Below, one piece after another: positions 1 through 11,180 of a stretch of 11,180 nucleotides of DNA. The stretch is from Candidatus Thorarchaeota archaeon (GTDB lineage: Archaea; Asgardarchaeota; Thorarchaeia; Thorarchaeales; Thorarchaeaceae), in the NCBI GenBank assembly GCA_016841005.1, contig JAEORG010000422.1, forward strand, positions 1 to 11,180, written 5' to 3'. Made by a program: the position numbers and the translations under genes. The notes beneath the pieces were generated by a model. The model made no database searches and was not told where the DNA came from. It worked only from the letters and a program-made list of their open reading frames with translations. The number at the start of each line of letters is the position of its first letter. Position 1 is the stretch's first letter.

Positions 1-74
1 AACAATCGAAGAATAACTCCTCTCTCTCTTGCTTTTTTTATAATGGATATAGATTCTTCAAATGCGTTCTTCAT
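1..74 (-). CDS. N-terminal 24 codons of a minus-strand gene, possibly a nucleotidyltransferase (partial)
   Basis: An open frame starts at ATG 74-72 on the minus strand and runs off the left edge of the window. It reads MKNAFEESISIIKKARERGV followed by ILRL. A GAGGT-like ribosome-binding sequence lies about 8 nt before the ATG. An amphipathic helix followed by RGVxLRL resembles the N-terminus of nucleotidyltransferase (AbiEii/MenAT-like) proteins, where this segment leads into the GG motif; that motif would lie outside the window, so the assignment is tentative. The start is 77 bp from tRNA-Asn fragment copy 1, and the gene is read away from it, so it would belong to a further cassette to the left. 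Confidence 0.45.
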   Translation of the reverse strand, partial: MKNAFEESISIIKKARERGVILRL

Positions 75-150
75 AACTAACCTCAACTATCAAACAGCAG
101 CAAAGCAACATATACAATTCGTCATATGCATGATAGCAACTGCACCCAAA

Positions 151-215
151 CAGCAACGTTAATATTACATTCCCTGCCGACTCCCCTACTAAGCCGTCGT
201 GGCTCAGCTAGGTAG
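151..215 (+). repeat. tRNA-Asn 5' fragment with promoter, copy 1
   Basis: This copy holds the shared leader (CAGCAACG, TATA-like TTAATATT at 159-166, then CCCTGCCGACTCCC). The tRNA 5' strand follows: acceptor GCCGTCG at 193-199, then TG and the D-arm GCTCAGCTAGGTAG, ending near 215. The same 60-bp unit recurs near 2831, 5184 and 9485. Similarity to the intact gene's leader extends left to about 141. The anticodon arm, T-arm and acceptor 3' strand are missing, so it cannot make a tRNA. Its promoter points at the membrane-protein gene that follows and could drive it. Confidence 0.85.
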
Positions 216-458
216 TCACATCATTGAATATTGAGGGATTGCTTGACTTTCATTAGCATATGAAAATCAAGTAGGTGAAAACGAAAACTGAAATTTACTT
301 CAAGTGCTAAATCAATCTTATCCGCACTAAAAAAGAAAATAAAAATTCAGAGAATCAAAGATGCAATTATCGATCTAGTCAAAGGTGGAACTATCGGAGC
401 TGGGATTGCAGTATCTTTCTTTATTCTAATCGTCGTTTTTTTCATTGCTGGCAGCTAT

Positions 459-1586
459 TTGATAGGGATTAATGCCATACCAAATACCCCGGTGGAGTTC
501 ATAAGGATTTCATTTATTGGCATATCAATAACATATGGTTCTCTTCTTTTCTTAGGGTATAGAAAATTTCTAGCAGGTAGTTCTACATGGACAGAAGAGA
601 GTTTTTCAGAGATTGATGATCACTATCACATTTGTTGTTTGGCAGGATTAGAATCCAAACAAGTACTTGAAAAATACAGACGAACAGGCATTCCTAATTT
701 TGCTGGCTGCGATACCATATCGACACGACTTCATATTGAAACGAACCTCTTCTGGCTCTTTATAGGAATTCTGTTTTTAGCTGGTGGATTGATATTAAGT
801 TCAATCCCCGTTGAGTCGTGGATTAATACAACTGGATTTATGATTGCTTTTACCTCTTGGATTTGGATTCTGATGGTGATTAGTGAAGGACTCATAGGTC
901 GTATCAGAAGATTCCAATACTGGCGGAAATTCTGGATTCAATATTGGGAATTTGCCAGAGATTTGAGTGCACCAGCCAACCGACTCATGGACCAGCAGTT
1001 TGACTGGACTCTTGACGGTGACACTGATTGGGGTGTTGTTGATGAGAACAAATATTCCGAGTATGTTCGAGAAGTACACAAGAAAACGCGTAAGATGGCT
1101 CGTAAAAGGCACCTCCAAGGAAGGGAAGATTGGCCTAAAATAGAAGACCTCGCAGGATTTGCAGATAGAATGATATGGTTTGAGAATATGAAAGAAGAAC
1201 TAGATTATATTGAGATTTCTGATGATGAACAAAAATGGTTCCCGATAGAAATACTTGATGAGCTGAAATCACTTGACAGACTGGAAGAACCCAAAGAATA
1301 TCCCCGATTGTTTCGTTGGTATAGAATTTTGGGGGCATTAGAAACCTATAGACAATGGCCTGAGCCAATTGAACAATTAACACTCGCTTTGAACTCTGCC
1401 AATCAGAACCAGCGACGTGAAATTTTTCGCTTCGCTTCAGAACGTCTGCGAGAATTTAGAGATTTGCCACACTTACCTGTTCCTGGATCGATGAAGTGGA
1501 TTGCACTACTATATGCGCTAGTAATTGCCGCTTCACAATATGTAGCTTCAATAATCTATTCGATTCTATTAGCCTTTAATGGATAG
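459..1586 (+). CDS. Multi-pass membrane protein of unknown function
   Basis: I do not recognise the family. From the first conventional start (TTG 459, 375 aa) there are hydrophobic segments at about residues 15-34, 96-116, 124-144 and 345-369. A long charged region lies at 150-340 (rich in W, R, E and K) and is probably cytoplasmic. The true start is probably upstream: the frame is open from 279, and codons 387-458 encode a strongly hydrophobic stretch (GAGIAVSFFILIVVFFIAG) that TTG 459 would cut in half. No in-frame ATG, GTG or TTG exists there. CTG 288 lies 9 nt after AGGTGA (273-278) and is a possible non-standard start. It is the only complete plus-strand protein gene here, directly downstream of tRNA fragment copy 1 and convergent with the next gene. 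Function and partner are unknown. Confidence 0.75.
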   Translation: MIGINAIPNTPVEFIRISFIGISITYGSLLFLGYRKFLAGSSTWTEESFSEIDDHYHICCLAGLESKQVLEKYRRTGIPNFAGCDTISTRLHIETNLFWLFIGILFLAGGLILSSIPVESWINTTGFMIAFTSWIWILMVISEGLIGRIRRFQYWRKFWIQYWEFARDLSAPANRLMDQQFDWTLDGDTDWGVVDENKYSEYVREVHKKTRKMARKRHLQGREDWPKIEDLAGFADRMIWFENMKEELDYIEISDDEQKWFPIEILDELKSLDRLEEPKEYPRLFRWYRILGALETYRQWPEPIEQLTLALNSANQNQRREIFRFASERLREFRDLPHLPVPGSMKWIALLYALVIAASQYVASIIYSILLAFNG

Positions 1587-1601
1587 TATTCTAAGAGCAG
1601 A

Positions 1602-1606
1602 TTTTT
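1602..1606 (+). terminator. Possible T-run terminator after the membrane-protein gene
   Basis: A run of five T lies 15 bp after the TAG stop, within a 103-bp convergent gap between two genes. Short T-runs are typical archaeal terminators. There is no hairpin and no other support. Confidence 0.25.
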
Positions 1607-1689
1607 GAGTGAAATTATGGTTTGAAAGGACATGACTATGACGACATAGTAGCTATCCTTGTAAATCACTATCAAAATATCTATGCCTG

Positions 1690-2118
1690 TTAGCCTGTCA
1701 GTACAATTTCTTCATCTAAATCTATTCCATAATCAGAGTCTTCGTGTTCAGTGTTTTTCACAGTAATCTTTTCGCCTTTATATCGCTTGACACCGACACC
1801 ATTCAAACGGGGCTTATGATGAGAAATTAAAGCCAATTCGATATTTGCCAAATCCTCATCTGTTTTGTTCCGATTTTTGACACAACCAAGTCCGATATAG
1901 ATATCTTCATCATAATCATGGATTACGGTCTTTAGTGCTTCGTGTTTATTGAGCAATCTGTCAGATACGGTTTGTTTGGATGTCATTCCAAGATATAGAA
2001 CCTCCCACTCGTTCTGTTTTTCTATTGCAATATAATAAAGATTGTATTTTGGATTGAATCCAGATTGTAGCCCTGCAATAACTTCAAACACTTCCCATTC
2101 AATAGTGTACACAGCCAT
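1690..2118 (-). CDS. GIY-YIG-like nuclease domain protein
   Basis: This 142-aa protein is probably a small DNA-cleaving enzyme of the GIY-YIG fold. The motif order fits: LYYIAIE (27-33) at the GIY strand, VLYLGMT (40-46) at the YIG strand, R54 and H59 on the following helix, and NIELALI with E94 as the metal-binding glutamate, then KPRLN with N106. The GIY tripeptide is degenerate (YYI) and YIG is YLG, so the call rests on the pattern as a whole. Residues after 110 form an acidic tail. Start ATG 2118 is preceded by GGATGTGA. It lies 31 bp downstream of the 189-aa gene on the same strand, so the two are probably co-transcribed. Role is unknown; defence, mobility or repair are all possible. Confidence 0.65.
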   Translation of the reverse strand: MAVYTIEWEVFEVIAGLQSGFNPKYNLYYIAIEKQNEWEVLYLGMTSKQTVSDRLLNKHEALKTVIHDYDEDIYIGLGCVKNRNKTDEDLANIELALISHHKPRLNGVGVKRYKGEKITVKNTEHEDSDYGIDLDEEIVLTG

Positions 2119-2149
2119 ATCATATCACATCCTACAAATCATAAAATGA

Positions 2150-2719
2150 TCATCCATCAAGTTTCAATGTTTCATGATAAACATGATACATGTATGAACC
2201 TAGGATATCGTTGGTTCCTAAAGAGGGAACATTGTATCGTTTTTCCCATTCTTCAACTGACAAACCAAATCCACTTGGAAGAAGTCTTGCTGGAATGCCA
2301 TACCTACGAGCTAAAGAATTACTAAAACTCTGATTCATAGAATAGTTATTTAGTCCTTGAAGAAACGAATGTGTCAACTTAGCAAATACCTGAACTTCAC
2401 TATTCAATAGTATCTTTTTGCGATACACAAGTATTGATCTGTTTCTTCGTGTGTCATTTACCTGCATATAGTGATAGTGATGAATTCCCTTCGAATAGGT
2501 GTCATACTGGAAAGTCAGAACTTCATTCTTGAGATTCCGAGTTAAGAAGAATTTTTCAAGATTTACCCTGAGCAATGCAATTCCTGAAGATTTGTCAACT
2601 TCTGCTCCATGTATGTATTGATATGCTGTAATTCCACCAGTGATATCCAAATCAGGCGCATTTTTCAGTAATCTACTTTTTACATCTGCATATAAATTCC
2701 AATCACGTTCTTTAAGCAT
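2150..2719 (-). CDS. Conserved-looking hypothetical protein, 189 aa
   Basis: I do not recognise this protein. It is soluble, mixed alpha/beta and basic, with a histidine/tyrosine-rich stretch HHYHY at residues 80-84, a central strand-rich part (LTFQYDTY, SILVYRKKILL) and a C-terminal part containing RRYGIPARLLPSGFGLSVEEWEKRY. That last segment looks like a compact helical motif but matches no family I can name. Start ATG 2719 has a strong upstream GGAGGGGCGA sequence, which supports it. The gene ends in TGA 31 bp before the GIY-YIG gene and is probably the first gene of a two-gene unit in this cassette. Its coupling to a nuclease suggests a partner or regulator role, which is inference. Confidence 0.7.
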   Translation of the reverse strand: MLKERDWNLYADVKSRLLKNAPDLDITGGITAYQYIHGAEVDKSSGIALLRVNLEKFFLTRNLKNEVLTFQYDTYSKGIHHYHYMQVNDTRRNRSILVYRKKILLNSEVQVFAKLTHSFLQGLNNYSMNQSFSNSLARRYGIPARLLPSGFGLSVEEWEKRYNVPSLGTNDILGSYMYHVYHETLKLDG

Positions 2720-2830
2720 GGTTCTTATCGCCCCTCCGATAAATACACAGCATTTTCTTTTAGATAGTAGTTAGTTATAAGGTAAATGATGACTTTTTGC
2801 GAATTTCGCGTTCTAGATTGGATTTGATGG

Positions 2831-2890
2831 AATCGTTAATATTGCATTCTCTGCCGACTCTCCCAGAACAATGCCGTCGTGGCTCAGCTA
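2831..2890 (+). repeat. tRNA-Asn 5' fragment with promoter, copy 2
   Basis: TATA-like TTAATATT (2836-2843), then CTGCCGACTC, acceptor GCCGTCG at 2873-2879, and TGGCTCAGCTA ending at 2890. Homology stops in the D-loop. The leader-to-tRNA spacing is 3 bp longer than in copy 1. The fragment ends 22 bp from the stop codon of the convergent OLD-family gene. Transcription from this promoter would run antisense into that gene. Confidence 0.85.
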
Positions 2891-2912
2891 GACTCATAAA
2901 CTCCTCTCTGAT

Positions 2913-5135
2913 TTATTCCTTCAACTTGCTAAGAAGCTGTTCCATATCAGCTGGAAATTTTTCACAGTGATTCAATAGCTCATCAACATTACATACTGAC
3001 CCTGCCATTCCCCTGTATTTATCTTCATCAAACTCTGCTTCTTCTTGATGAAGCAATTTTACCGCACCAACAAGTGCCTCTGGTAATATTTGTCTGAGGA
3101 AGATTTTCCCTGGTAGATTGGCGCAGACAAATCCATAGTTTACACTTCCTGAAGAATCAAAACACTGTTGTTTGAGATTGTCATAAGTTTCCTTGATACT
3201 AATCTCTGTGTATTGATTGGAAATATTCTGCAGAGTGTCCTCAATCAAGGTTTTTTCCTCAGACAATTCCTCGAGTGCTTCTTTCTGTGTAATTTTCCAA
3301 CGCTTCCCGGTTGATTTCTTGCGAAGGATTGGTCTTACGATATTTCCGAGGTCTGATTTTATTATCAAGAGGATCCACTTGTTGAGATAGTCCTCAATTA
3401 CTTTAGCTAGACCCATATCAAACAAACTTCTATTGGAATCATTATATTCCACACCAACTTTTCCGAAAAACTTCTCTAAAGTCTTTGAAATTGTCTTTTC
3501 TGTAATCACGAGATTCTCTATCTCTCTAACTGAGAGAATGAACTCGTAATCCTTTTTCCTTGCACGTTTTTCATCTCTATCAAGAATTACAATGAATGGT
3601 ATTTCTGGCGTTTGTAATGTTTCATCACCTTTTGCTATCAGGTCTACTACAGCTCTTCCTATTTTGCTAGCTTCCTCTACACCTCCTAATGGTACGAAGA
3701 GTGGCCTATGCTGCTCGAACTCATCAAGCCTATTGAACCTGTGTAGAATCTTTTTGATTATCGTGCCATCTGATTCGCCTTCAACAAGCAATATCACTCT
3801 GGAAAGAGCGGCCATGTGCTTCATAAAGCGACTGACTTTGATGCCCAAATCACCTAGAAATTGAATAATATCTGCTTCTGATCCCTTTTTGACCTGAGTG
3901 TGGCCATCATCATCCAATGTGACCCCATAGATTACCACATCACCACGAGTAATTGCATCATCTGGAACCGAGGAAACGATGGTTTCTGAATGAGTGGCTA
4001 TAACAAGCTGGCCTTTTCCGTGGTTTAGAAAGAAATCAATGATTTTGGGCTCTAATTTTGGATGAAGATGATTTTCGGGCTCATCAATAATGAGAAGGTT
4101 CTCTTCCTGATTCTGCATGAACGCCATAGCCATTAAAAGCTGCTTCAGTCCATCACCTTGAGTCCCCAACTCAAAGTCTCCATTCTTCTTTTTGATAATT
4201 ACTTTCACTTGTCCAATTGTAATATCATATGAAGGATCAATATCTTCAATATCGGGAAACACTTCTTTTACTAACTCTACAATTGACTCAAGAGCATATG
4301 AAGGAGCCTTATCACGTGTAGTGGATTCACTTGTGTAGAGAAGATACTCTCGAATTCTGTCTGGTGTCGGCAACTTCCCTCCCAGTCCACCCTGACCAAT
4401 CGTGTCGGGTCTATCAGGCGGCAACTTTCGTGGAAAATCCATGCATCTATGAACAAGGAATTCATACATTACTTGAATGTATTGAAATAGATGAAAATCT
4501 TTTGAGTAAGGGCCAACTTGCTCAAGAAATAATTGCTGCCATCTCTTTTCGTAAATCCCCCACTCATGTCTTATTCCGTCTTGAAACTGATCCCAGTGAC
4601 TCTTGAAATGAAAACTACTGTCGATTTTCCGAAATACACTCACTTGAATTTTCATCGGATTAGGGAAAAACACATTGGCATAATCACGTAGTTGTACGAG
4701 AAACCTATTCCAATATACTTCTGATTCAGGGTATCTTGCAATACACTGGGTTTTCATAATGCGAAAGGCTTCATAAATTGCATCATTTCTGTCAACATCT
4801 GTAATTGTTAGCGTCGCATCAATACATGCAATCTGATGCATCTCTGGTTCTTCTGAACTATCTAATGCAGCAAGAGCTCCCTTATTGACGACTTCGCTAT
4901 CAACCCTTTCTTCTTGGGTCGTATTTAGTACATAATTCAATGATTCCAGAATATTGGATTTTCCTGAGTTATTAGGACCTATTAGAATTGTTACTCGCCG
5001 CCCCAACTCGATTTCCAATGGATTCAGAATTGAAGTGATGTTTTGAATTCCAATTTTGTGAATTATAACCAATCTAGTTTTCCTCTTGCAGATTTGCACT
5101 TGGTATTCCTTATTCCCCCGAATCAGGAAACTCAT
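2913..5135 (-). CDS. OLD-family nuclease: SMC/RecF-type ATPase with C-terminal TOPRIM domain
   Basis: This 740-aa protein matches the overcoming-lysogenization-defect family: an ABC-type ATPase fused to a metal-dependent TOPRIM nuclease. The ATPase shows Walker A GPNNSGKS (53-60), signature QGDGLKQLLMA (326-336), Walker B NLLIIDEPE (346-354) and H-loop THSE (381-384). A variable insert of about 210 residues (90-300) separates Walker A from the signature. The TOPRIM part shows LLVEGESD (449-456, E452), ILDRDEK (517-523, D519 and D521) and VREIENLVI (536-544). Length and domain order are complete, so it looks functional. It occupies a whole cassette alone, between tRNA copies 2 and 3. There is no neighbouring UvrD-like helicase, so it is not a two-gene Gabija pair. 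OLD nucleases commonly act in phage defence. The conserved ATPase core begins near residue 24, so a slightly later start is possible. Confidence 0.93.
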   Translation of the reverse strand: MSFLIRGNKEYQVQICKRKTRLVIIHKIGIQNITSILNPLEIELGRRVTILIGPNNSGKSNILESLNYVLNTTQEERVDSEVVNKGALAALDSSEEPEMHQIACIDATLTITDVDRNDAIYEAFRIMKTQCIARYPESEVYWNRFLVQLRDYANVFFPNPMKIQVSVFRKIDSSFHFKSHWDQFQDGIRHEWGIYEKRWQQLFLEQVGPYSKDFHLFQYIQVMYEFLVHRCMDFPRKLPPDRPDTIGQGGLGGKLPTPDRIREYLLYTSESTTRDKAPSYALESIVELVKEVFPDIEDIDPSYDITIGQVKVIIKKKNGDFELGTQGDGLKQLLMAMAFMQNQEENLLIIDEPENHLHPKLEPKIIDFFLNHGKGQLVIATHSETIVSSVPDDAITRGDVVIYGVTLDDDGHTQVKKGSEADIIQFLGDLGIKVSRFMKHMAALSRVILLVEGESDGTIIKKILHRFNRLDEFEQHRPLFVPLGGVEEASKIGRAVVDLIAKGDETLQTPEIPFIVILDRDEKRARKKDYEFILSVREIENLVITEKTISKTLEKFFGKVGVEYNDSNRSLFDMGLAKVIEDYLNKWILLIIKSDLGNIVRPILRKKSTGKRWKITQKEALEELSEEKTLIEDTLQNISNQYTEISIKETYDNLKQQCFDSSGSVNYGFVCANLPGKIFLRQILPEALVGAVKLLHQEEAEFDEDKYRGMAGSVCNVDELLNHCEKFPADMEQLLSKLKE

Positions 5136-5160
5136 TTTACCAACTTATAGATTCCTTTTC

Positions 5161-5168
5161 ATATTTAC
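5161..5168 (-). promoter_or_regulatory. Possible TATA box of the OLD-family gene
   Basis: On the minus strand, GTAAATAT is centred about 28 bp before ATG 5135. That spacing fits a leaderless archaeal transcript, and no clear Shine-Dalgarno sequence precedes the ATG. It lies 15 bp from tRNA copy 3, so the cassette would carry its own promoter at its edge. Confidence 0.3.
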
Positions 5169-5183
5169 GTATTAAAGACTAAT

Positions 5184-5260
5184 CAGCAACGTTAGTATTG
5201 TATTCCCTGCCGACTCCCCTACTAAGCCGTCGTGGCTCAGCTATGCAGAGCAGGTTATCC
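5184..5260 (+). repeat. tRNA-Asn 5' fragment with promoter, copy 3
   Basis: CAGCAACG, TATA-like TTAGTATT (5192-5199, one A-to-G change from the other copies), CCCTGCCGACTCCC, acceptor GCCGTCG at 5226-5232 and TGGCTCAGCTA to 5243. The following TGCAGAGC still resembles D-stem GGTAGAGC, and AGGTTATCC resembles the anticodon loop with about 8 nt lost. The copy therefore appears eroded rather than sharply cut. It ends 15-30 bp before the stop codon of the HEAT-like gene. Confidence 0.8.
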
Positions 5261-5274
5261 TTGGAAATTTGGTG

Positions 5275-6546
5275 CTAGCAACCACCTTGTTTTCTTATCT
5301 TTTCTTTATCTAGTTCCCAAGTGGGACGTCCATATATCATCAATTCTCTGCCTTCTCGTATGGCCCGGTTAACAGTGCGAATATAGTGCTCATATCGTTC
5401 GCCTTCAGATTTAGCTTGTTTCCTTGCGATTCCAATCAGTATTTTGTCCAAGTCCTCGACTAATTCTTTCTCTGTAATTGCCTTTGTTTCAAATCTAGTA
5501 GCACGAGTTAATCCAACCACTTTATACGAACCTCTTGGATAGAGATTTTTACGTATATACACGCCCATATTGAAAACATCCCAAAAGCATCCGCGCCAGA
5601 TTTTCACATCTGCAAATAAAGTACCAAATGAATATCGGAAAACTACTCTATAGTCATCGTTTTTGTATTTATCAAGTCGGACTATCTCTTCTTGAGCCCA
5701 ATCCACATCTTTTTCTTCCGGTTTGATAATCCCAATTATGAGCCTTGAGAGATTATCAGTTGTTCGCGTCGGAAGTCTATCTCTGAAGCGAGGTGGCACA
5801 GGCAGATCTCTCTTCTTGAGAATCTCGGCAGATTGGATTCGGATTAGCAAGTCTTCTTTTTCATTTTCAACCATTCTATTGAGTCTATCAAGAACCGGTT
5901 TCTGAATCTTATCAATATCCTGAAGACTTAATGTATCAACTGCAAGCTGTCGAATATACTTACTTGAATCAGACAACAAATCAGCCATAGGAATATCTTC
6001 CATCTGGTTCATCTTGGCAAGTATTTGATCAATCATGTACGTATTGCCTGTTGACGCAATTTTCTTTAGAACTGGTATACATGCTGGTTTTGGTATCTCG
6101 TAAAGGGCATCAATGAACCACCTAGATAATCTATTTTTCTGCGGTTTTTTGAATAGTCGTTCAATAGCACTAATTGCATCCTGTGAACCTAATTCAAGCA
6201 GAGCAAGAAACATCTCTTTAACATGGAAGCAATGACTGCCTTTTTGATTACACCGCTCTAGTTCTACTTCCAGCGCTTTTGTAATAGCAGGATTACTCGA
6301 TTTGCCCAACGCTCTGTAGAAAACAGGATTTCCAGATCCTGTCAAGTGCCTCATACTACTTGGAGATCCCCGAGCGATTTCGAGGAAATATTGAAGATGA
6401 TCTGGATTTTTATCCAACCATTCAACGGTATCTGTAAGTATCTTCTCAAGTTCTTCCTTTTGTTCATTTTCGTTTAGATATGAGTTAAAATAACGAATAT
6501 CTAGCATATCTAGTTCTTTTCTGATCTTGGAATCATTTTCCTCCAT
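5275..6546 (-). CDS. HEAT-repeat-like helical protein with a distinct C-terminal domain
   Basis: This 423-aa soluble protein lacks signal or membrane segments. Residues about 110-245 contain paired helices of HEAT/ARM type: an EMFLALLELGSQDAISAIERLF unit, an ACIPVLKKIASTG unit, and YIRQLAVDTLSLQDI followed by LIRIQSAEILKKR. Residues 280-400 look like a separate alpha/beta domain (DYRVVFRYSFGTLFADVKIWRG, then GSYKVVGLTRATRF) that I cannot name. HEAT arrays usually bind protein or nucleic acid partners. The ATG overlaps the stop of the upstream membrane-protein gene by one base (TAATG), so the two are translationally coupled and probably form a complex. The gene ends 15-30 bp from tRNA copy 3. 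No catalytic motif was seen, so a sensor or scaffold role is inference. Confidence 0.75.
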   Translation of the reverse strand: MEENDSKIRKELDMLDIRYFNSYLNENEQKEELEKILTDTVEWLDKNPDHLQYFLEIARGSPSSMRHLTGSGNPVFYRALGKSSNPAITKALEVELERCNQKGSHCFHVKEMFLALLELGSQDAISAIERLFKKPQKNRLSRWFIDALYEIPKPACIPVLKKIASTGNTYMIDQILAKMNQMEDIPMADLLSDSSKYIRQLAVDTLSLQDIDKIQKPVLDRLNRMVENEKEDLLIRIQSAEILKKRDLPVPPRFRDRLPTRTTDNLSRLIIGIIKPEEKDVDWAQEEIVRLDKYKNDDYRVVFRYSFGTLFADVKIWRGCFWDVFNMGVYIRKNLYPRGSYKVVGLTRATRFETKAITEKELVEDLDKILIGIARKQAKSEGERYEHYIRTVNRAIREGRELMIYGRPTWELDKEKIRKQGGC

Positions 6547-7085
6547 TATGCTTCATCCTCCATCTTTTCACTATTCATCGGCTGCGTATTTCCAGAAACA
6601 GCAGTAATCCGTAATGCAGAAGATAATGAAATTGGATGAGTTGGAGCATAGGTGGATATGTGATTCTCTAAGTGTTTTATACGCATCTTGGCTTCTTCAA
6701 TCTCAAGGTCCATTGTCCTATTTGCTTGCTTCAGCTGTTGCTGGACAGCGTAGCTATTTTCATAGAATGGATTAATAAGGCGTTTTTTCAATTCCTTGAC
6801 TTCTGCGTGAAGACTGGTAATTGTAGTTAGATTGCTCTTGAATTGTTGGATTGTATAATCTAGGGAAGGATCGGATTTCTGCTTTTCTAGGTACTGTGAA
6901 ATATCGTAATATCCAGATGGAGCTGACAGCAGAAACGCAACAATTAGAAGTATTATTTCATCACTTGATATTACCAAATTCACGGATACAAAAACAATAA
7001 CAGCGATTGATAGCAAATAGGGTGAATAAACAGCAAGTATCCGTGGAATACTAGACAAATTCTTCCCTCCGTCAGTTGATTTCAA
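6546..7085 (-). CDS. Two-TM membrane protein with coiled coil, coupled to the HEAT-like protein
   Basis: This 179-aa protein has two hydrophobic segments at residues 18-40 and 43-58 with a short turn. A helical, charged region at about 75-145 follows (HAEVKELKKRL, QQQLKQANRTMDLEIEEAKMRIKHLENH), which looks like a coiled coil. The tail is polar and disordered. The start is TTG 7085, chosen because AAGGAT lies 5-6 nt upstream and no ATG is available before the first TM segment. Its stop overlaps the next gene's ATG by one base. A small membrane anchor coupled to a soluble HEAT-like partner resembles membrane-effector pairs in defence cassettes, but the family is not recognised. Confidence 0.7.
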   Translation of the reverse strand: MKSTDGGKNLSSIPRILAVYSPYLLSIAVIVFVSVNLVISSDEIILLIVAFLLSAPSGYYDISQYLEKQKSDPSLDYTIQQFKSNLTTITSLHAEVKELKKRLINPFYENSYAVQQQLKQANRTMDLEIEEAKMRIKHLENHISTYAPTHPISLSSALRITAVSGNTQPMNSEKMEDEA

Positions 7086-7247
7086 TTAAATCCTTGATTT
7101 TATTCCTATTGGTGATTGTATTCTTTCGCTTCATTCGATTTGTATGGGGTTTGAAAATCACGACTTGTAAAAGATAGGCGATACCTCGATTTGGTTTGGT
7201 TTTTGGATTCGACTTTGTGACAATCTATTGTTCATCGATACATCCTT

Positions 7248-7352
7248 TCAATTTTCGGGGAATCTATTGAGAAATGATTCTTTTCCATCTCTAATTAATA
7301 TCAATGCGCTCTTTCTAAGATATTCAATTATCACTGGAACACGTTTACTCGC
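7248..7352 (-). pseudogene. 3' stub of a second HEPN-family gene, paralogous to 8167-8727
   Basis: The minus strand encodes about 34 residues ending in TGA 7250-7248. The end reads KRVPVIIEYLRKSALILI, then RDGKESFLNRFPEN. This aligns with the C-terminus of the protein at 8167-8727 (ERIPVLIEYLRNSILILI, then KEENESFIDRF). The rest of the gene, including the catalytic HEPN motif, is gone. Homology stops within 2-3 bp of 7351, where tRNA-Asn copy 4 begins, so the tRNA sequence has replaced the gene body. It lies 163 bp upstream of the two-TM gene; the gap at 7086-7247 holds nothing I can identify. Confidence 0.8.
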
Positions 7353-7465
7353 TGTCGTGACTAAGTCGGTAGAGCAGCAGCTACTTGATGTATAGTGTGT
7401 CATGCAGCTAAAGCCTGTTGCCTTTCGGTTAGGTGACCGAGAGCCAGACAGTTATTAGTCGGAGG
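7351..7465 (+). pseudogene. tRNA-Asn 5' fragment, copy 4 (tRNA pseudogene, no promoter)
   Basis: Acceptor-like GCTGTCG (7351-7357), TG, a damaged D-arm (ACTA instead of GCTC, but GGTAGAGC kept), and anticodon-loop CTGTTG with anticodon GTT. An intron-like hairpin follows (CTTTCGGT with ACCGAGAG), then GAGCCAGAC shared exactly with intron 1 of the intact gene, GTTAT, TAGTC and T-stem GGAGG ending near 7465. An insert of about 30 nt lies between D-stem and anticodon stem, bounded by the direct repeat GCAGCTA (7377-7383 and 7404-7410). The variable-region intron is absent. The T-stem 3' strand and acceptor 3' strand are missing, so it is not functional. The leader seen in the other copies is absent. 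Confidence 0.85.
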
Positions 7466-7466
7466 T

Positions 7467-8048
7467 CTATTGAGCTCTTTTCTCTGTACGTTCTTTTTCG
7501 AGCTTGGAAAATTCTTCCATCCATTTCTTGCTCATTGTTTCTTTAAGTACTTCAGGGATTTTTTCAAGCGCTGTTTTTGTAAAACCCTCAGCAATTTGTA
7601 AACGCAGTTCATCCAATAAGTGACTATCAACTACAGTCGTGATTCTAGCTGCATCATATCGATCAACTAAAACATTGCGTCGAATAAGGACCTCATAAAT
7701 CGCATCAAACTTCCCTCGTTTTGAATTTTCAATGAATCTAATATCACCAGTTGATAATCCCATCTCCCATGCTTGTGTAGATCCTCTTATGAGTTTATCA
7801 TCTCTCAGAATCCAAAGGTTAAAGCAAAGCTCTTTTCCCAGTGCATAGGTAAGTTTGTTACCATTCTGTTGTTCGCCAGCAAGAGTGAAGGTTCTCTCAA
7901 AAGAAATAACCAGTGCAAAGCCGAGAGTTGTGCCTGCAACCTCAACCCATAGAGGGTCGTATTCTCACTGCGACAACCCAGTTAATATGATAAATGTGAG
8001 AGCTGCAGAGAGTATACAAGTAAAAATCCATACATACAGGTCTTTCAT
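7467..8048 (-). pseudogene. Two-TM membrane protein gene interrupted by an in-frame TGA
   Basis: A single minus-strand frame of 193 codons runs from ATG 8048 to TAG 7467, broken only by TGA at codon 28 (7967-7965). Before it, MKDLYVWIFTCILSAALTFI forms TM1. After it, EYDPLWVEVAGTTLGFALVISFE forms TM2, followed by a soluble part (LTYALGKELCFNLWILRDDK) and a charged helical tail ending KEMSK-like residues and EKRAQ. Both sides read as one protein, so this is one gene with a point nonsense change, a sequencing error or a recoded codon; TGG (Trp) is a likely ancestor. An internal ATG at 7763 could give a 98-aa soluble fragment. The stop codon begins 1-2 bp after tRNA copy 4. It lies downstream of the HEPN gene in the same orientation. 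Family not recognised. Confidence 0.8.
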
Positions 8049-8166
8049 CTTAGTCAAAGTTTTCTCTTAAAGAAATATAGACCTTATGACTCCAAAATAG
8101 AATTGCTAATATGTGGGCATCACATTCTTTCTGGAATCTATTTAAGACACAGATGCTCAGAAATTC

Positions 8167-8727
8167 TTAGAATCGATCAATAAACGATTCATTTTCTTCT
8201 TTAATCAGAATCAAGATGCTATTCCGTAAATACTCAATCAGAACTGGAATGCGTTCGTTTGCTGAGAATTGCTTCTTTTTGTCTAATGGTGTCCCATGAC
8301 TTGTTGGATTTCTAATAGCAAAATAGGATTCCTTGATATTCGTTTTAATCTCCCGGGCATCCAAGTCCTCGTTTGATAGTACAGCTGCAACTCTCCTAGC
8401 AAGCCTTGAGCCTTTCCCAGGGTTTCTATCCATTGGTAGATATAATGACTCGATTCCTCTGATTACTTCTGAAAGAATCTCATTGGGTGCATCAAGTTTG
8501 TATATAGCATTAGAATAGCATTGGTACGCAACTGCAAGGCGAGTGTTCTGGTGATAGGGACCCATCAGAAGATCTTTTGGAATTAGTTGAGGAAGGTCAA
8601 TAATATGGTATTTCAATTCATCGAAGTCACTATTGGTGATCAGACGCCCTCCGCGCTCGTGAGCTACAATGTTCTCAGATTTTTGAGGTGAATTAGAAAC
8701 AAGTGACTTGGGATTCTCAAAAATCAT
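8167..8727 (-). CDS. HEPN-domain RNase-like protein, C-terminal part of a split gene
   Basis: This 186-aa product carries the HEPN signature RNPTSH (R139 to H144, the R-x4-H RNase motif) inside IKESYFAIRNPTSHG. It is preceded by helices with GIESLYL (91-97) and LARRVAAVLS (109-118). HEPN proteins of this kind are typically metal-independent RNases in toxin-antitoxin and phage-defence systems. The frame continues directly from the gene at 8731-9417: TAA at 8733-8731, one GTC codon, then ATG 8727. There is no Shine-Dalgarno sequence before this ATG. I read the two as one ancestral protein of about 416 aa broken by a nonsense codon. Independent translation as a separate subunit, or readthrough, cannot be excluded. 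A truncated paralogue lies at 7248-7352. Confidence 0.75.
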   Translation of the reverse strand: MIFENPKSLVSNSPQKSENIVAHERGGRLITNSDFDELKYHIIDLPQLIPKDLLMGPYHQNTRLAVAYQCYSNAIYKLDAPNEILSEVIRGIESLYLPMDRNPGKGSRLARRVAAVLSNEDLDAREIKTNIKESYFAIRNPTSHGTPLDKKKQFSANERIPVLIEYLRNSILILIKEENESFIDRF

Positions 8728-8730
8728 GAC

Positions 8731-9417
8731 TTAATCGATACCAGGTCTGAAGAGCTTTAGAGATATGATGAGCTTTGCTACGTAATCGTAAGGCTGTTCA
8801 AAATGCTCATCGGGAATGAATATTGTTTCGAGAATTGCACTAGGAATTGTTCTCCGGGTTCTTAGCCAAAATGCAGGATCGCCCAATCCACGTTCGATCA
8901 TCAGATCTTCTTCTGTGGGGGTTTTAATTGTAATATTCTTGTATTGAAAATCACTCTCAAGATAGAAACCTATCAACCAGATTGTTATTTCCCAAGGAAT
9001 AGGCTTGCCAAATAAATCATTGAGAAAGATATTAGTGATGTCCGTAACTGGATCTGGTGGAACGTTCCAGAAGTGATTGTGCACAACTGATGCAAAAAAG
9101 AAGAAACCATCTTTTTCTAGGTTCTTCAGATGTTCTGGGTGGCTCGACTGAATAAACTCGTGTGTATCTTGATACTCCTTTGCAGGCATTATTTCTGCTT
9201 CGAAGAGATTACGTAGGTCATCGTGATGGAATCTACAAATTACAGCATTCTCAATTTTTGTTGAGCTCATCTGCGTAAACTTGCCTTGAGCTACCCTTCT
9301 GGTCTCTCTTATCCGAGGAATTACCATGAATCGGATTCTACTCTCTTTTTGTGCTCTACCTACCTTATTGATAGATAGTTCAGCTAGTTTCAGGAGTAAA
9401 TCCTCAAGCTCGACCAT
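8731..9417 (-). CDS. N-terminal part of the split HEPN-family protein
   Basis: This 228-aa protein starts at ATG 9417 and ends at an in-frame TAA (8733-8731) immediately before the HEPN part. No catalytic motif is seen in it. It has hydrophobic/aromatic patches (FFFFASVVHNHFW at 105-117, ITIWLIGFYLESDF at 144-157) and ends with VAKLIISLKLFRPG (213-226). In long HEPN proteins that type of segment commonly precedes the HEPN helices, so the junction is where a domain linker would be expected. As annotated it would be a truncated, RNase-less product unless the stop is read through or the two parts reassemble. The gene starts 67 bp from the leader of the intact tRNA-Asn and is read away from it. 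Confidence 0.7.
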   Translation of the reverse strand: MVELEDLLLKLAELSINKVGRAQKESRIRFMVIPRIRETRRVAQGKFTQMSSTKIENAVICRFHHDDLRNLFEAEIMPAKEYQDTHEFIQSSHPEHLKNLEKDGFFFFASVVHNHFWNVPPDPVTDITNIFLNDLFGKPIPWEITIWLIGFYLESDFQYKNITIKTPTEEDLMIERGLGDPAFWLRTRRTIPSAILETIFIPDEHFEQPYDYVAKLIISLKLFRPGID

Positions 9418-9474
9418 TCTTGGCTCACTAATCGGAGTTCAATGAGTTATCTCATCAAGAAAAGATATGAATGT

Positions 9475-9526
9475 TGCACCCCAACAGCAACGTTAATATT
9501 GCATTCCCTGCCGACTCCCTGATTAT
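9475..9526 (+). promoter_or_regulatory. Promoter and leader of tRNA-Asn
   Basis: TATA-like TTAATATT at 9493-9500, centred 30 bp before tRNA position 1, preceded by CAGCAACG as a possible BRE-side element. CCCTGCCGACTCCC is conserved in three upstream partial copies. The spacing suggests transcription starts a few bases before the tRNA, leaving a short leader for RNase P. Confidence 0.7.
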
Positions 9527-9564
9527 GCCATCGTGGCTCAGCTAGGTAGAGCGACAGCCTGTTA

Positions 9565-9592
9565 TCTCTCACCCGCTGGTCGAGAGCCAGAC
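9565..9592 (+). other. tRNA intron 1, anticodon loop (37/38), 28 nt
   Basis: BHB fold: anticodon stem, 3' bulge ACA (9591-9593), central helix CTGT with CCAG (one mismatch), 5' bulge TAT (9563-9565), then intron hairpin CTCTC with GAGAG. Cuts after A9564 and C9592 restore a 7-nt anticodon loop. Its 3' end GAGCCAGAC is conserved in tRNA copy 4. Confidence 0.8.
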
Positions 9593-9598
9593 AGTTGT

Positions 9599-9628
9599 AA
9601 CGCACTACATTTCGTGGTGCGTGACGAA
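9599..9628 (+). other. tRNA intron 2, variable region, about 30 nt
   Basis: Hairpin ACGCACTAC (9600-9608) with GTGGTGCGT (9614-9622). Removing 9599-9628 leaves a normal 5-nt variable region TGGTC, with 3-nt bulges GTA and AAT around a weak central helix. The boundaries could shift by one base (giving AGGTC). The intron is absent from tRNA copy 4. Confidence 0.7.
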
Positions 9629-9644
9629 TGGTCGGAGGTTCGAG

Positions 9645-9674
9645 ATCCAGCCCCCTTGCGAGGCTGGGAGAGTA
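9645..9674 (+). other. tRNA intron 3, T-loop (59/60), 30 nt
   Basis: BHB fold on top of the T-stem: central helix TTCG with AGAG (one mismatch), 5' bulge AGA (9643-9645), 3' bulge TAC (9673-9675), and intron hairpin TCCAGCC with GGCTGGG. Cuts after G9644 and A9674 give T-loop TTCGAGC. Confidence 0.8.
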
Positions 9675-9716
9675 CCCTCCCGATGGCGCTTTATATAAAC
9701 AAATATTTTATTAAAA

Positions 9717-11165
9717 CTATGAGAACCAGTCAGTCCACTCCTTTTTATCTAACCAATCTTCAACGAGAGTCCTTAACCAATCTTCCACTTTGTTTCTCTT
9801 ATATTCATCATTAGGTGGGCAGATAGTTCCCCAACGAATAGCATCTTTTTTAGTACTGGTACTTGCTGAATGCCGAACAGAAACTCTCTCCGATTTTGGA
9901 TAATATCTGGTCATAGGAGATGACAATGTTATTTGAATGCCAAGACTCTCTGCAATCTTCTTTTCATCTTCAATAAGATTGTTCGAGGAGTTTCGGATGA
10001 CCTCAATAAGACGCTTAGCTGAATGCGATTTGTTTGTATCATCATTAAACTGCAGCTCTTCCAATTTGCCATATGCCAGATTATACTGTGGAACAAGCCC
10101 CTTTGTTTGTGTTCCTTCATCGATGATAAGTTGAATCTCTCGGCGAGAAATCAGCGATTTGAAACGATGTCTACCACCTTCGGCCTCATCATATATTGCA
10201 TGATTTCTATTCCACGCAAAGCCTCTATGAGTTGAAAAGCTACCTTCCTCTGGAATAAGCTCTTCCAGGTATGCGCGTCGCGCCTCCTCGGACCAATTGG
10301 TGTAATTACTAGGGAGTCCCGGATTCTGAATAGCCTTACTCCCAGGCGTCATTCCCTCGTGAATCATCATGAGACCTATTTGGTTCGGAATGTGGCTTTC
10401 ATAGACTCCATGATGAAGTTTGGGAACAAGAGTGATATCTCCGAAGTTTCGAAGAATCTCTTGAACCTTAGCAACACGTTCAAGATTGTCTTCATTGTAG
10501 CTAATTCTCCCAGACTCTGCAAGATAACAATCACTTGCTATGATAGCAGCAAGACGAGCTTTGAGAACTTCTAGATTCCTACCTTCAGGGAAATGCGGAT
10601 TCTCTATTCCTGCCTGTCCATTGATGCCTGTAACCTTTACGACATGGCCTTCTAAGTCAGCGAGTCTGCTATCAGATGTGTCAAGATAGATTCGGATCAC
10701 TTTTCCTTCAAGTCTTGTGCTCTTCTCATCAATAGGACGTACCCGAGCAGTCTCACCATGGGATTCGTGAATAAGTTGCCGTGTAATTTCATTCAGATGT
10801 TTTAGTGACTCACGCTTACCCCCTTCGATACCAAGTCGGTTCCCCAAATCCTCAACAACACTACTTAGGTCACGACGGTCTTTGAAGTAGTAAAATTGCT
10901 TCTCATACGCATCAACGAGTTCATCAGGTCTAGATTTTGGAATCCATGTGTAGATTCTACAATCTTCTACTGCAATTCGTGCACGGATTTCACCTAGACC
11001 CATTCTCTTCGAAAGACCCTTCTCAATCTCGTGCTGTTTTGTACGAATTGTCGGTTCAATTTGACGAATCTGTTCTTGGCTGAGAACTTCGCTGAAGTCT
11101 GCATATCGAATCCTGTTATTGTCATTTACTGGAGCTTTGTTAATATGTTCTAAAGCGTCCGTCAT
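9717..11165 (-). CDS. Free-standing LAGLIDADG-type homing endonuclease-like protein
   Basis: This 482-aa protein has two LAGLIDADG-like helices: ARLAAIIASDC (203-213, acidic D212) and RAYLEELIPEEGSF (297-310, acidic E306/E307). The 95-residue spacing is that of one monomeric domain. Between them are YNEDNLERVAKVQEILRNFG, typical of the saddle, and GMTPGSKAIQNPGLPSNY, as often found before the second motif. Both acidic positions are kept, so cleavage activity is plausible. Residues 45-80 may be a helix-turn-helix ending in RIYTWI. It is not embedded in an intron or intein. It converges on the tRNA-Asn gene, with its stop 29 bp away. ATG 11165 has no obvious ribosome-binding site and the frame continues upstream to the window edge, so the start may be earlier. 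A role as a transcription factor, as in some LAGLIDADG proteins, is the main alternative. Confidence 0.75.
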   Translation of the reverse strand: MTDALEHINKAPVNDNNRIRYADFSEVLSQEQIRQIEPTIRTKQHEIEKGLSKRMGLGEIRARIAVEDCRIYTWIPKSRPDELVDAYEKQFYYFKDRRDLSSVVEDLGNRLGIEGGKRESLKHLNEITRQLIHESHGETARVRPIDEKSTRLEGKVIRIYLDTSDSRLADLEGHVVKVTGINGQAGIENPHFPEGRNLEVLKARLAAIIASDCYLAESGRISYNEDNLERVAKVQEILRNFGDITLVPKLHHGVYESHIPNQIGLMMIHEGMTPGSKAIQNPGLPSNYTNWSEEARRAYLEELIPEEGSFSTHRGFAWNRNHAIYDEAEGGRHRFKSLISRREIQLIIDEGTQTKGLVPQYNLAYGKLEELQFNDDTNKSHSAKRLIEVIRNSSNNLIEDEKKIAESLGIQITLSSPMTRYYPKSERVSVRHSASTSTKKDAIRWGTICPPNDEYKRNKVEDWLRTLVEDWLDKKEWTDWFS

Positions 11166-11180
11166 TTGATCTACGGAGAT

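Follow-up and report, generated by a model that had tools for sequence, protein, structure and literature searches.

How does an essential gene for asparagine tRNA (tRNA-Asn) come to stand last in a row of its own broken 5′ halves? The question is raised by contig JAEORG010000422.1 of a Candidatus Thorarchaeota archaeon (assembly GCA_016841005.1, positions 1–11,180 of the forward strand); the whole 11,180-nt stretch is called the window below. In it, four tRNA-Asn fragments, separated by cassettes of other genes, precede one complete gene, which converges with a gene for a protein that we call F1. We compared the window with 47 genomes of the order (G-numbers denote genomes and L-numbers denote loci or stretches) and favor, with some reserve, the reading that the array is a scar record of serial break-and-replace insertions into tRNA-Asn, the 5′ halves being the scars.

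Broken, empty, and occupied tRNA-Asn sites

A first-pass annotation had described five tRNA-Asn copies, all on the + strand, of which one lacked a promoter and reached the T-stem and the last was a complete gene, and each of these points held. Two probe patterns gave four matches each in the window and none in 200 shuffles. The promoter-less copy lies at ∼7349–7466 and is 83.8% identical over 68 nt to the gene of Candidatus Thorarchaeota archaeon FT5_021. The last copy is tRNA-Asn(GTT), interrupted by introns of 28, 30, and 30 nt; unspliced, it escapes ARAGORN, which does recognize its spliced 75-mer and the intron-free gene of G040. An Rfam scan of the window gave no match. The promoter block and 5′ half of the fragments also occur at 9482–9549, inside the complete gene, and the four window units are 82–94% alike over their aligned parts. 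The fragments do not break uniformly (after GGTAG, CTAG, or CTA or in the T-stem), and the second lacks the first bases of its promoter block.

In a pattern scan of one genome per species, a single stretch was matched, in FT5_021, to which window positions 1–216 (left flank and 5′ half) are 97.7% identical, with 5 positions differing; the first fragment taken by itself is 98.6% identical to the FT5_021 unit. Where the window switches to its first cassette, FT5_021 runs on as one intact tRNA-Asn at the same flank and is therefore the empty state of the 5′ array, a state that the first-pass annotation had led us to expect. The working gene of the window is closest to that of G031 (95.6% over 158 nt, window 9480–9637, versus 92.5% over 67 nt for FT5_021) and has its anticodon-loop and variable-loop introns in common with G031; its T-loop intron is FT5_021-like (86.9% over 61 nt). 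By these alignments, the working gene, at least in its 5′ two-thirds, seems to have come from another lineage. The earlier proposal that each element supplies a new promoter and 5′ half agrees with this picture, as these parts apparently came from outside, the leftmost unit being FT5_021-like and the last gene G031-like.

As anticipated, related genomes hold more copies of the unit beside tRNA-Asn. A sequence-only profile of the unit (E-value ≤ 0.01) matched 37 of the 47 genomes; narrower probes found fewer (a strict 18-base pattern of the 5′ half, 3/47; a 65-base DNA query, 9/47). One complete gene is present in 35 of the 37, the gene of G014 being cut by a contig end and G026 having fragments only. 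We found 14 5′ fragments in 10 genomes, which together with the four in the window makes 18, the weakest of them (L017:3287) scoring 12.9 bits. When end positions were read by eye, 10 of the 18 ended in the D-loop or just past it, three in the anticodon or variable region (L020, L066, and L071), three in the T-stem (L023, L065, and window 7349), and one in the acceptor stem (L017:2090), and one was too degraded to place. In G033, the anticodon loop of one fragment (L071:6958–7090) is continuous where an intron normally stands, resembling a spliced copy or one derived from an intron-free gene. On contigs that are long enough, tRNA-Asn mostly lies between a transporter gene, presumably ZIP-like, and a conserved gene block.

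With at most one mismatch, CAGCAAYGTTAATATT occurs at 13 places in 8 of 10 genomes searched; tRNA-Asn or a fragment of it accounts for 11 of these, and two lie elsewhere (G017 and G028, one mismatch each); the tRNA-Asn genes of G003, G016, and G017 were not matched in this search. The regions upstream of 20 other tRNAs of G007 have at least 5 mismatches in 16 positions to the core of the promoter block. Because the matches are nearly confined to tRNA-Asn and the G007 tRNAs are unlike it, the block belongs to tRNA-Asn, and the same two results ruled out a general tRNA promoter. Separately, an 18-bp block, AACAGCAAYGTTAATATT (window 9482–9499), stands nearly unchanged upstream of tRNA-Asn in 7 of 10 genomes searched and is missing at 20 other tRNAs of G007, a conservation that exceeds the needs of a TATA box.

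Fragments of the other end of the gene are about equally common. When 597,592 bases were scanned with a 22-base probe for the tRNA 3′ end (at most 5 mismatches), many matches lay outside complete genes, compared with a mean of 0.1 matches for 20 shuffled probes, and a 15-base probe added a few more. We counted 22 credible 3′ fragments, with two doubtful rows excluded, alongside the 18 5′ fragments in the stretches examined, and scars of both kinds therefore exist. Seventeen of the 22 share their first base, which lies two bases past the T-loop intron site (in the 3′ strand of the T-stem, it is the C of CTNNC); the match could be extended leftward by one base in none of these 17, and the other five fragments are shorter. 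The right-hand (3′) junction is sharp, and the left-hand (5′) junction is frayed. FT5_021 itself has two 3′ fragments on the 3′ side of its tRNA-Asn. In FT5_021 (L027:13553–15824) and G025 (L070:7609–9058), there are 3′-side ladders in which the complete tRNA-Asn is followed by small cassettes ending in 3′ fragments, and a DUF6487 zinc-ribbon gene occurs in such cassettes of both.

Two complete elements were found, in G018 (L075) and G033 (L071). Each runs from a 5′ fragment (+) through cargo, the genes F14, F1, and F35, and an inverted complete tRNA-Asn to a 3′ fragment (+), which is weak in G033 (5/22 mismatches); G029, G032, G036, and G026 hold parts of the same order on broken contigs. In line with the first-pass annotation, single inserts are present in some relatives and absent from others, with readable junctions and flanks that are 93–94% identical. 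G043, with an intact tRNA-Asn, is 93.7% identical to G042 up to unit offset 15 and 93.9% identical again from offset 171, and in G042, host offsets 16–170 are replaced by 2.76 kb containing F1 and an inverted complete tRNA-Asn. Compared with the same empty site, the insert of G045 carries an inverted complete tRNA-Asn and another open reading frame (ORF) in place of F1; the right junctions of the two inserts are identical, and the left junctions differ. The element splits the host tRNA-Asn and brings a replacement gene. Three alleles are seen at one flank, uninterrupted in G028 and broken in G029 and G032. For genomes with inverted genes, we also weighed an inversion between 5′ halves in opposite orientation and dropped it once the 3′ fragments showed a host gene split in place.

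Most of the element architecture recurs at alanine tRNA (tRNA-Ala; anticodon GGC, read by eye). In G043, F1 and F14 come after an intact tRNA-Ala gene, and beyond them lies an inverted 5′ fragment of 69 bp that has a promoter and ends in the D-loop. F1 also stands at tRNA-Ala in G045 and G009, the latter with a 3′ fragment that starts at the anticodon stem. The G043 tRNA-Ala gene has a D-loop insert of ∼31 nt (L135:5079–5180) that the G045 gene is without. At L145, the 3′ end of F1 and the 3′ end of tRNA-Ala form a 172-bp inverted repeat (7129–7299 and 8466–8636), which is likely the remnant of an earlier element. Further copies of F1 adjoin protein genes (L137, L141, L132, L134, L148, and L147), which we take to be rpl2, rpS19, and genes for S-adenosylhomocysteinase, an Sm-like protein, and a deacetylase-like protein. 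In L147, F1 is flanked by direct repeats of the end of the protein gene (88 bp, 73%), and L148 too has direct repeats of gene sequence around F1.

F1, its partners, and its targets

What kind of protein accompanies the broken genes? The AlphaFold model of F1 (mean pLDDT, the predicted local distance difference test score, of 88.4) was matched by Foldseek to I-Tsp061I (E = 6e-7) and also to I-DmoI and PI-SceI, and every one of its 18 PDB hits with E ≤ 0.001 is a LAGLIDADG nuclease or an intein. An acidic residue is found at the ends of both LAGLIDADG motifs in all 30 aligned F1 rows (D212 in 30/30; D or E at 307 in 30/30). F1 is thus modeled with a LAGLIDADG homing-endonuclease fold in which the motif acids are kept. 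A search of PDB sequences with the F1 profile returned no LAGLIDADG protein, only weak matches to RNA polymerase subunit F (best E 0.0039) and RsiG, and three F1 homologues matched no Pfam family above cut-off. A protein search found 49 relatives, of which all with an NCBI name are from Thorarchaeota; within the order, the F1 profile matched 31 of the 47 genomes, the maximum being 10 matches per genome (some of them pieces of a single copy), and across the phylum it matched 36 of 227 genomes. In the viral contigs searched, there was no F1 relative, and seven motif matches were each followed by unrelated DNA, giving no free or viral form. F1 often follows F14, a DUF87/HerA-like ATPase whose resemblance to CedD and TraD falls below cut-off, and precedes the small protein F35.

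In a tree of 30 F1 proteins with five target labels, the tRNA-Ala copies group across genomes, as do the rpl2 copies, and the tRNA-Asn copies form two groups. The labels require 5 changes, compared with a minimum of 4 and a mean of 8.6 over 200 label shuffles, none of which was as low; the exceptions are a two-copy label, X, that is not one group and a tRNA-Ala group that holds two copies with other or unknown targets. A single genome may hold several F1 proteins for different targets. The reconstructed phylogeny of F1 follows the target gene, not the host, which is the pattern expected of an endonuclease that chooses its target.

We also tabulated F1, fragments, and introns by hand, over loci that are related and not independent, so that the p values given here and below are a guide only: where the complete gene has F1 or a remnant of it as a neighbor, 9 of 15 loci contained 5′ fragments, versus 1 of 21 others (p = 4e-4). 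A looser count, which took G026 and G009 as module-bearing because of F14 beside their 5′ fragments, gave 11/17 versus 0/20 (p = 1.4e-5).

The introns of tRNA-Asn vary among relatives at six places, read by eye (D-loop, anticodon stem, anticodon loop, variable loop, T-stem, and T-loop), and G040 has none. All 11 tRNA-Asn genes that neighbor an intact F1 have a T-arm intron, as do 14 of the 21 without F1 (p = 0.066). For the T-loop intron, the count is 8/8 in the larger F1 clade (A) versus 11/21 without F1 (p = 0.027); one of the eight (G046) lies outside the tree and one of the 21 (G022) has its downstream side cut off, and without these two the count is 7/7 versus 11/20 (p = 0.059). When the smaller clade B is added, p becomes 0.14 or, with stricter rows, 0.24.

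Cassettes and cargo of the window

The first-pass annotation had called the cassettes defense-like and expected different cargo in different genomes. The latter was borne out, elements in other genomes carrying an AAA/STAND-like ATPase, NosD- and LVIVD-repeat proteins, a peptidase C39-like protein, and an NYN-domain protein. The former stands clearly for the AAA/TOPRIM protein at 2913–5135 alone (Pfam AAA_21, 4e-23; OLD-like_TOPRIM, 0.0027, below its cut-off), which by PADLOC resembles AriAB, AbiLi, PtuA, and GajA; by Pfam and PADLOC, the rest of the cargo is mixed. Among the ten window ORFs, PADLOC recognized no complete defense system and no partner gene, and the three ORFs of cassette 4 matched no family above cut-off. 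Cassette stacking is real, and clear defense is a minority of the cargo. Homologues of the HEAT-repeat protein occur in 1 of the 47 genomes and those of the AAA protein in 2, and the short stretches around them contain no tRNA-Asn fragment. A truncated second copy of the gene at 8167–8727, consisting only of its end, adjoins the degenerate tRNA-Asn copy.

Features of the window, with fragments numbered as putative scars from left to right
Feature	Position	Strand	Remarks
Left chromosomal flank in common with FT5_021	1..147	+	5 mismatches versus FT5_021 across 1–216
Putative scar 1: host promoter block and tRNA-Asn 5′ half, D-loop end (after GGTAG)	148..215	+	R1 71.6 bits
Cassette 1	216..2829		Three ORFs between putative scars 1 and 2
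Membrane protein, cassette 1	459–1586	+	
GIY-YIG-like protein, cassette 1	1690–2118	-	
ORF without assigned family, cassette 1	2150–2719	-	
Putative scar 2: partial promoter block and 5′ half, D-loop end (after CTAG)	2830..2891	+	R1 52.1 bits
Cassette 2: AAA ATPase with OLD-like TOPRIM	2892..5180	- (ORF)	ORF 2913–5135
Putative scar 3: promoter block and 5′ half, D-loop end (after CTA)	5181..5243	+	R1 65.7 bits
Cassette 3	5244..7348		HEAT-repeat protein, second ORF, gene end
HEAT-repeat protein, cassette 3	5275–6546	-	
ORF, cassette 3	6546–7085	-	
Gene end resembling 8167–8727, cassette 3	∼7260–7355		tblastn, 59% over 32 amino acids
Putative scar 4: degenerate promoter-less tRNA-Asn 5′ part, intron remains, T-stem end	7349..7466	+	
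Cassette 4	7467..9481		ORFs 7467–7763 (-), 8167–8727 (-), 8731–9417 (-)
Promoter block of the working gene, AACAGCAACGTTAATATT...	9482..9526	+	
Complete tRNA-Asn(GTT)	9527..9689	+	Exons 9527–9564, 9593–9599, 9630–9644, 9675–9689
F1, predicted LAGLIDADG homing-endonuclease-fold protein, convergent with tRNA-Asn, cut by window edge	9717..11180	-	

Origin of the ladder and its relatives

How might such a ladder be built? We propose that a mobile module, consisting of F1 and often F14 and F35, sits 3′ end to 3′ end with its target gene and that F1 or a relative would cut the host tRNA-Asn near the T-loop or T-stem. The essential gene would have to be restored after the cut, and repair may take in a DNA segment with a complete tRNA-Asn, its promoter, and the neighboring F1/F14 or cargo, by end joining or one-sided recombination and in either orientation. 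With the incoming gene in charge, what survives of the old one would be a 5′ fragment to one side and, in the typical case, a 3′ fragment to the other; repeated rounds would yield a row of several promoter-bearing 5′ halves, spaced by cargo and closed by the newest intact gene. T-arm introns of the incoming gene may make it uncuttable. In the window, the copies at 148, 2830, 5181, and 7349 would be the scars of successive hosts, and the gene at 9527 would be the newest.

Several observations weigh against this account. Ten of the 18 5′ fragments stop in the D-loop or just past it, not at the T-arm, and one cut followed by random resection therefore does not explain the left junctions. No 3′ fragment was found at the tRNA-Ala locus of G043 or inside the window, for which the model would require them to the right of 11180. 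F1 is absent from window cassettes 1–3 and from the ORFs of the FT5_021 3′-side cassettes, G009 has a 5′ fragment with no F1 beside its complete gene, and 6 of the 15 F1 loci have no 5′ fragment. F1 matches no Pfam family above cut-off (PF14528, at E 0.045, falls below it), and the association of introns with F1, which would fit a protected replacement gene, is weak in these alignments. A bolder version of the proposal, which we hold as tentative and rather doubtful, is a natural cleave-and-rescue system in which F1 would cut tRNA-Asn (or tRNA-Ala or other essential genes), with the copy on the element protected by its T-arm intron.

Could an integrase have built the ladder instead? The first-pass annotation had suggested a special, integrase-like cassette system that duplicates only the 5′ part of the gene. 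This did not survive as the main account, as the 22 3′ fragments are about as common as the 5′ ones, whole inverted tRNAs are carried, and neither the ten window ORFs nor the element ORFs tested yielded a recognizable integrase domain. Repeats of the tRNA 3′ end, such as are expected of tyrosine-integrase islands at tRNA genes, are present, but 5′ repeats and inverted whole genes are present as well. In a rival account that we judge unlikely, a site-specific recombinase, unrecognized or encoded elsewhere, would integrate cassettes at the D-loop (5′) and T-stem (3′), each cassette restoring the gene as in ordinary tRNA islands, with F1 as a passenger. This account would explain the data to the extent that it would account for the 17 of 22 3′ junctions at one base, the clustering of D-loop ends within a few nucleotides, and the DUF6487 zinc-ribbon genes between tRNA and 3′ fragment in FT5_021 and G025, and Sugahara et al. 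(2012; PMC3293823), in the sections available to us, read a single 5′ fragment of Caldiarchaeum in this way. However, of 14 genomes searched, 7 lack PF00589, including five with 5′ fragments, and the domain is also missing from every ladder contig and from G018 and G033 with their complete elements (these metagenome-assembled genomes may be incomplete, and other recombinase families were not searched). Moreover, inverted whole tRNAs and lost host bases are unlike conservative integration, and F1 tracks its target in the tree.

Exchange by homologous recombination alone, in which incoming DNA carrying a tRNA-Asn and its neighbors would recombine within the conserved 65-bp block or the tRNA itself and cassettes would pass between genomes with no nuclease of their own, seems to us distinctly improbable. 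The window units are 82–94% alike and directly flank the cassettes, and the last gene is of a different lineage from the left flank, as such exchange would predict, but the recurrent 3′ junction, the loss of target bases, the inverted genes, and the association of 5′ fragments with F1 would be left unexplained. It is very hard to credit that the promoter-bearing 5′ halves are working parts (trans-spliced halves of a split tRNA or regulatory RNA), even though three of the four in the window keep all or part of a promoter block that is tRNA-Asn-specific in the genomes tested, because 35 of the 37 matched genomes have a complete gene (the others being G014, cut by its contig end, and G026, with fragments only), breakpoints are scattered between acceptor stem and T-stem, some copies have decayed (window 7349 and L017:3287), and a split tRNA gene would have no intact counterpart such as that at 9527–9689.

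Which known systems does serial break-and-replace insertion resemble? Integrons hold ordered cassettes behind a fixed platform gene, with the newest nearest the platform; the present cassettes are likewise ordered, but no integron integrase or attC site was seen, and what repeats is the promoter and 5′ half of a tRNA. A close likeness, in the sections of the source available to us, is with endonuclease ORFs of fungal mitochondrial DNA that carry replacement gene ends (Allomyces atp6; Glomus atp6, atp9, cox2, and nad3; PMC3630166), where an endonuclease also stands beside a host gene, the incoming part takes over, and the native part, more like that of close relatives, is displaced alongside. 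A complete incoming part and a displaced native part are likewise found in G042 and G045 compared with G043 and at tRNA-Ala of G043. The Thorarchaeota element differs in targeting mainly tRNA genes, in often bringing a whole inverted gene, in its ATPase partner, and in the piling up of scars and cargo over what would be successive rounds. In tRNA-dependent lysogeny, as described in the available parts of Guerrero-Bustamante and Hatfull (2024; PMC10865867), actinobacteriophages break a tRNA and supply their own, much as a host tRNA is broken and one of the same isotype lies on the insert in G042 and G045 compared with G043; that system rests on a phage and a tyrosine integrase, neither of which was recognized here, and F1 has instead a predicted endonuclease fold.

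Two further cases are archaeal. In Caldiarchaeum subterraneum, a 5′ half of tRNA-Thr (nt 1–27 plus upstream DNA) lies upstream of an intact gene that has gained an intron, ∼1.8 kb apart in one clone, and was interpreted as pNOB8-type integration (Sugahara et al., 2012; PMC3293823). This locus would correspond to one rung of the Thorarchaeota ladder; the available sections of that paper describe no homing endonuclease, 3′ fragments, or serial array. HeimM2, a mobile element of Heimdallarchaeum, shares an Asgard host and a homing-endonuclease-like gene next to a tRNA (PMC8813620) but lies between 16S rRNA and tRNA-Arg, and the parts of that report available to us describe no broken or replaced tRNA. 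Elements with F1 and F14 were not found in the open-access literature searched, nor was the combination of an archaeal host, serial insertion, a whole inverted replacement tRNA, an ATPase partner, and two tRNA species.

If the proposed reading is correct, then it would provide a mechanism for the repeated breakage of essential archaeal tRNA genes, by a family of mobile DNA not found described in the open-access literature searched and resident in archaea related to eukaryotes. Randau and Soll's proposal that introns protect tRNA genes against mobile DNA (cited in the available part of PMC3293823) would become directly testable with one enzyme and two DNA substrates, and the elements would be a natural counterpart of laboratory cleave-and-rescue elements. 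Should the bolder version also hold, cells would survive only by keeping the element. The odd introns of archaeal tRNAs would then be armor, and the stacked 5′ halves would be a fossil record of successive takeovers.

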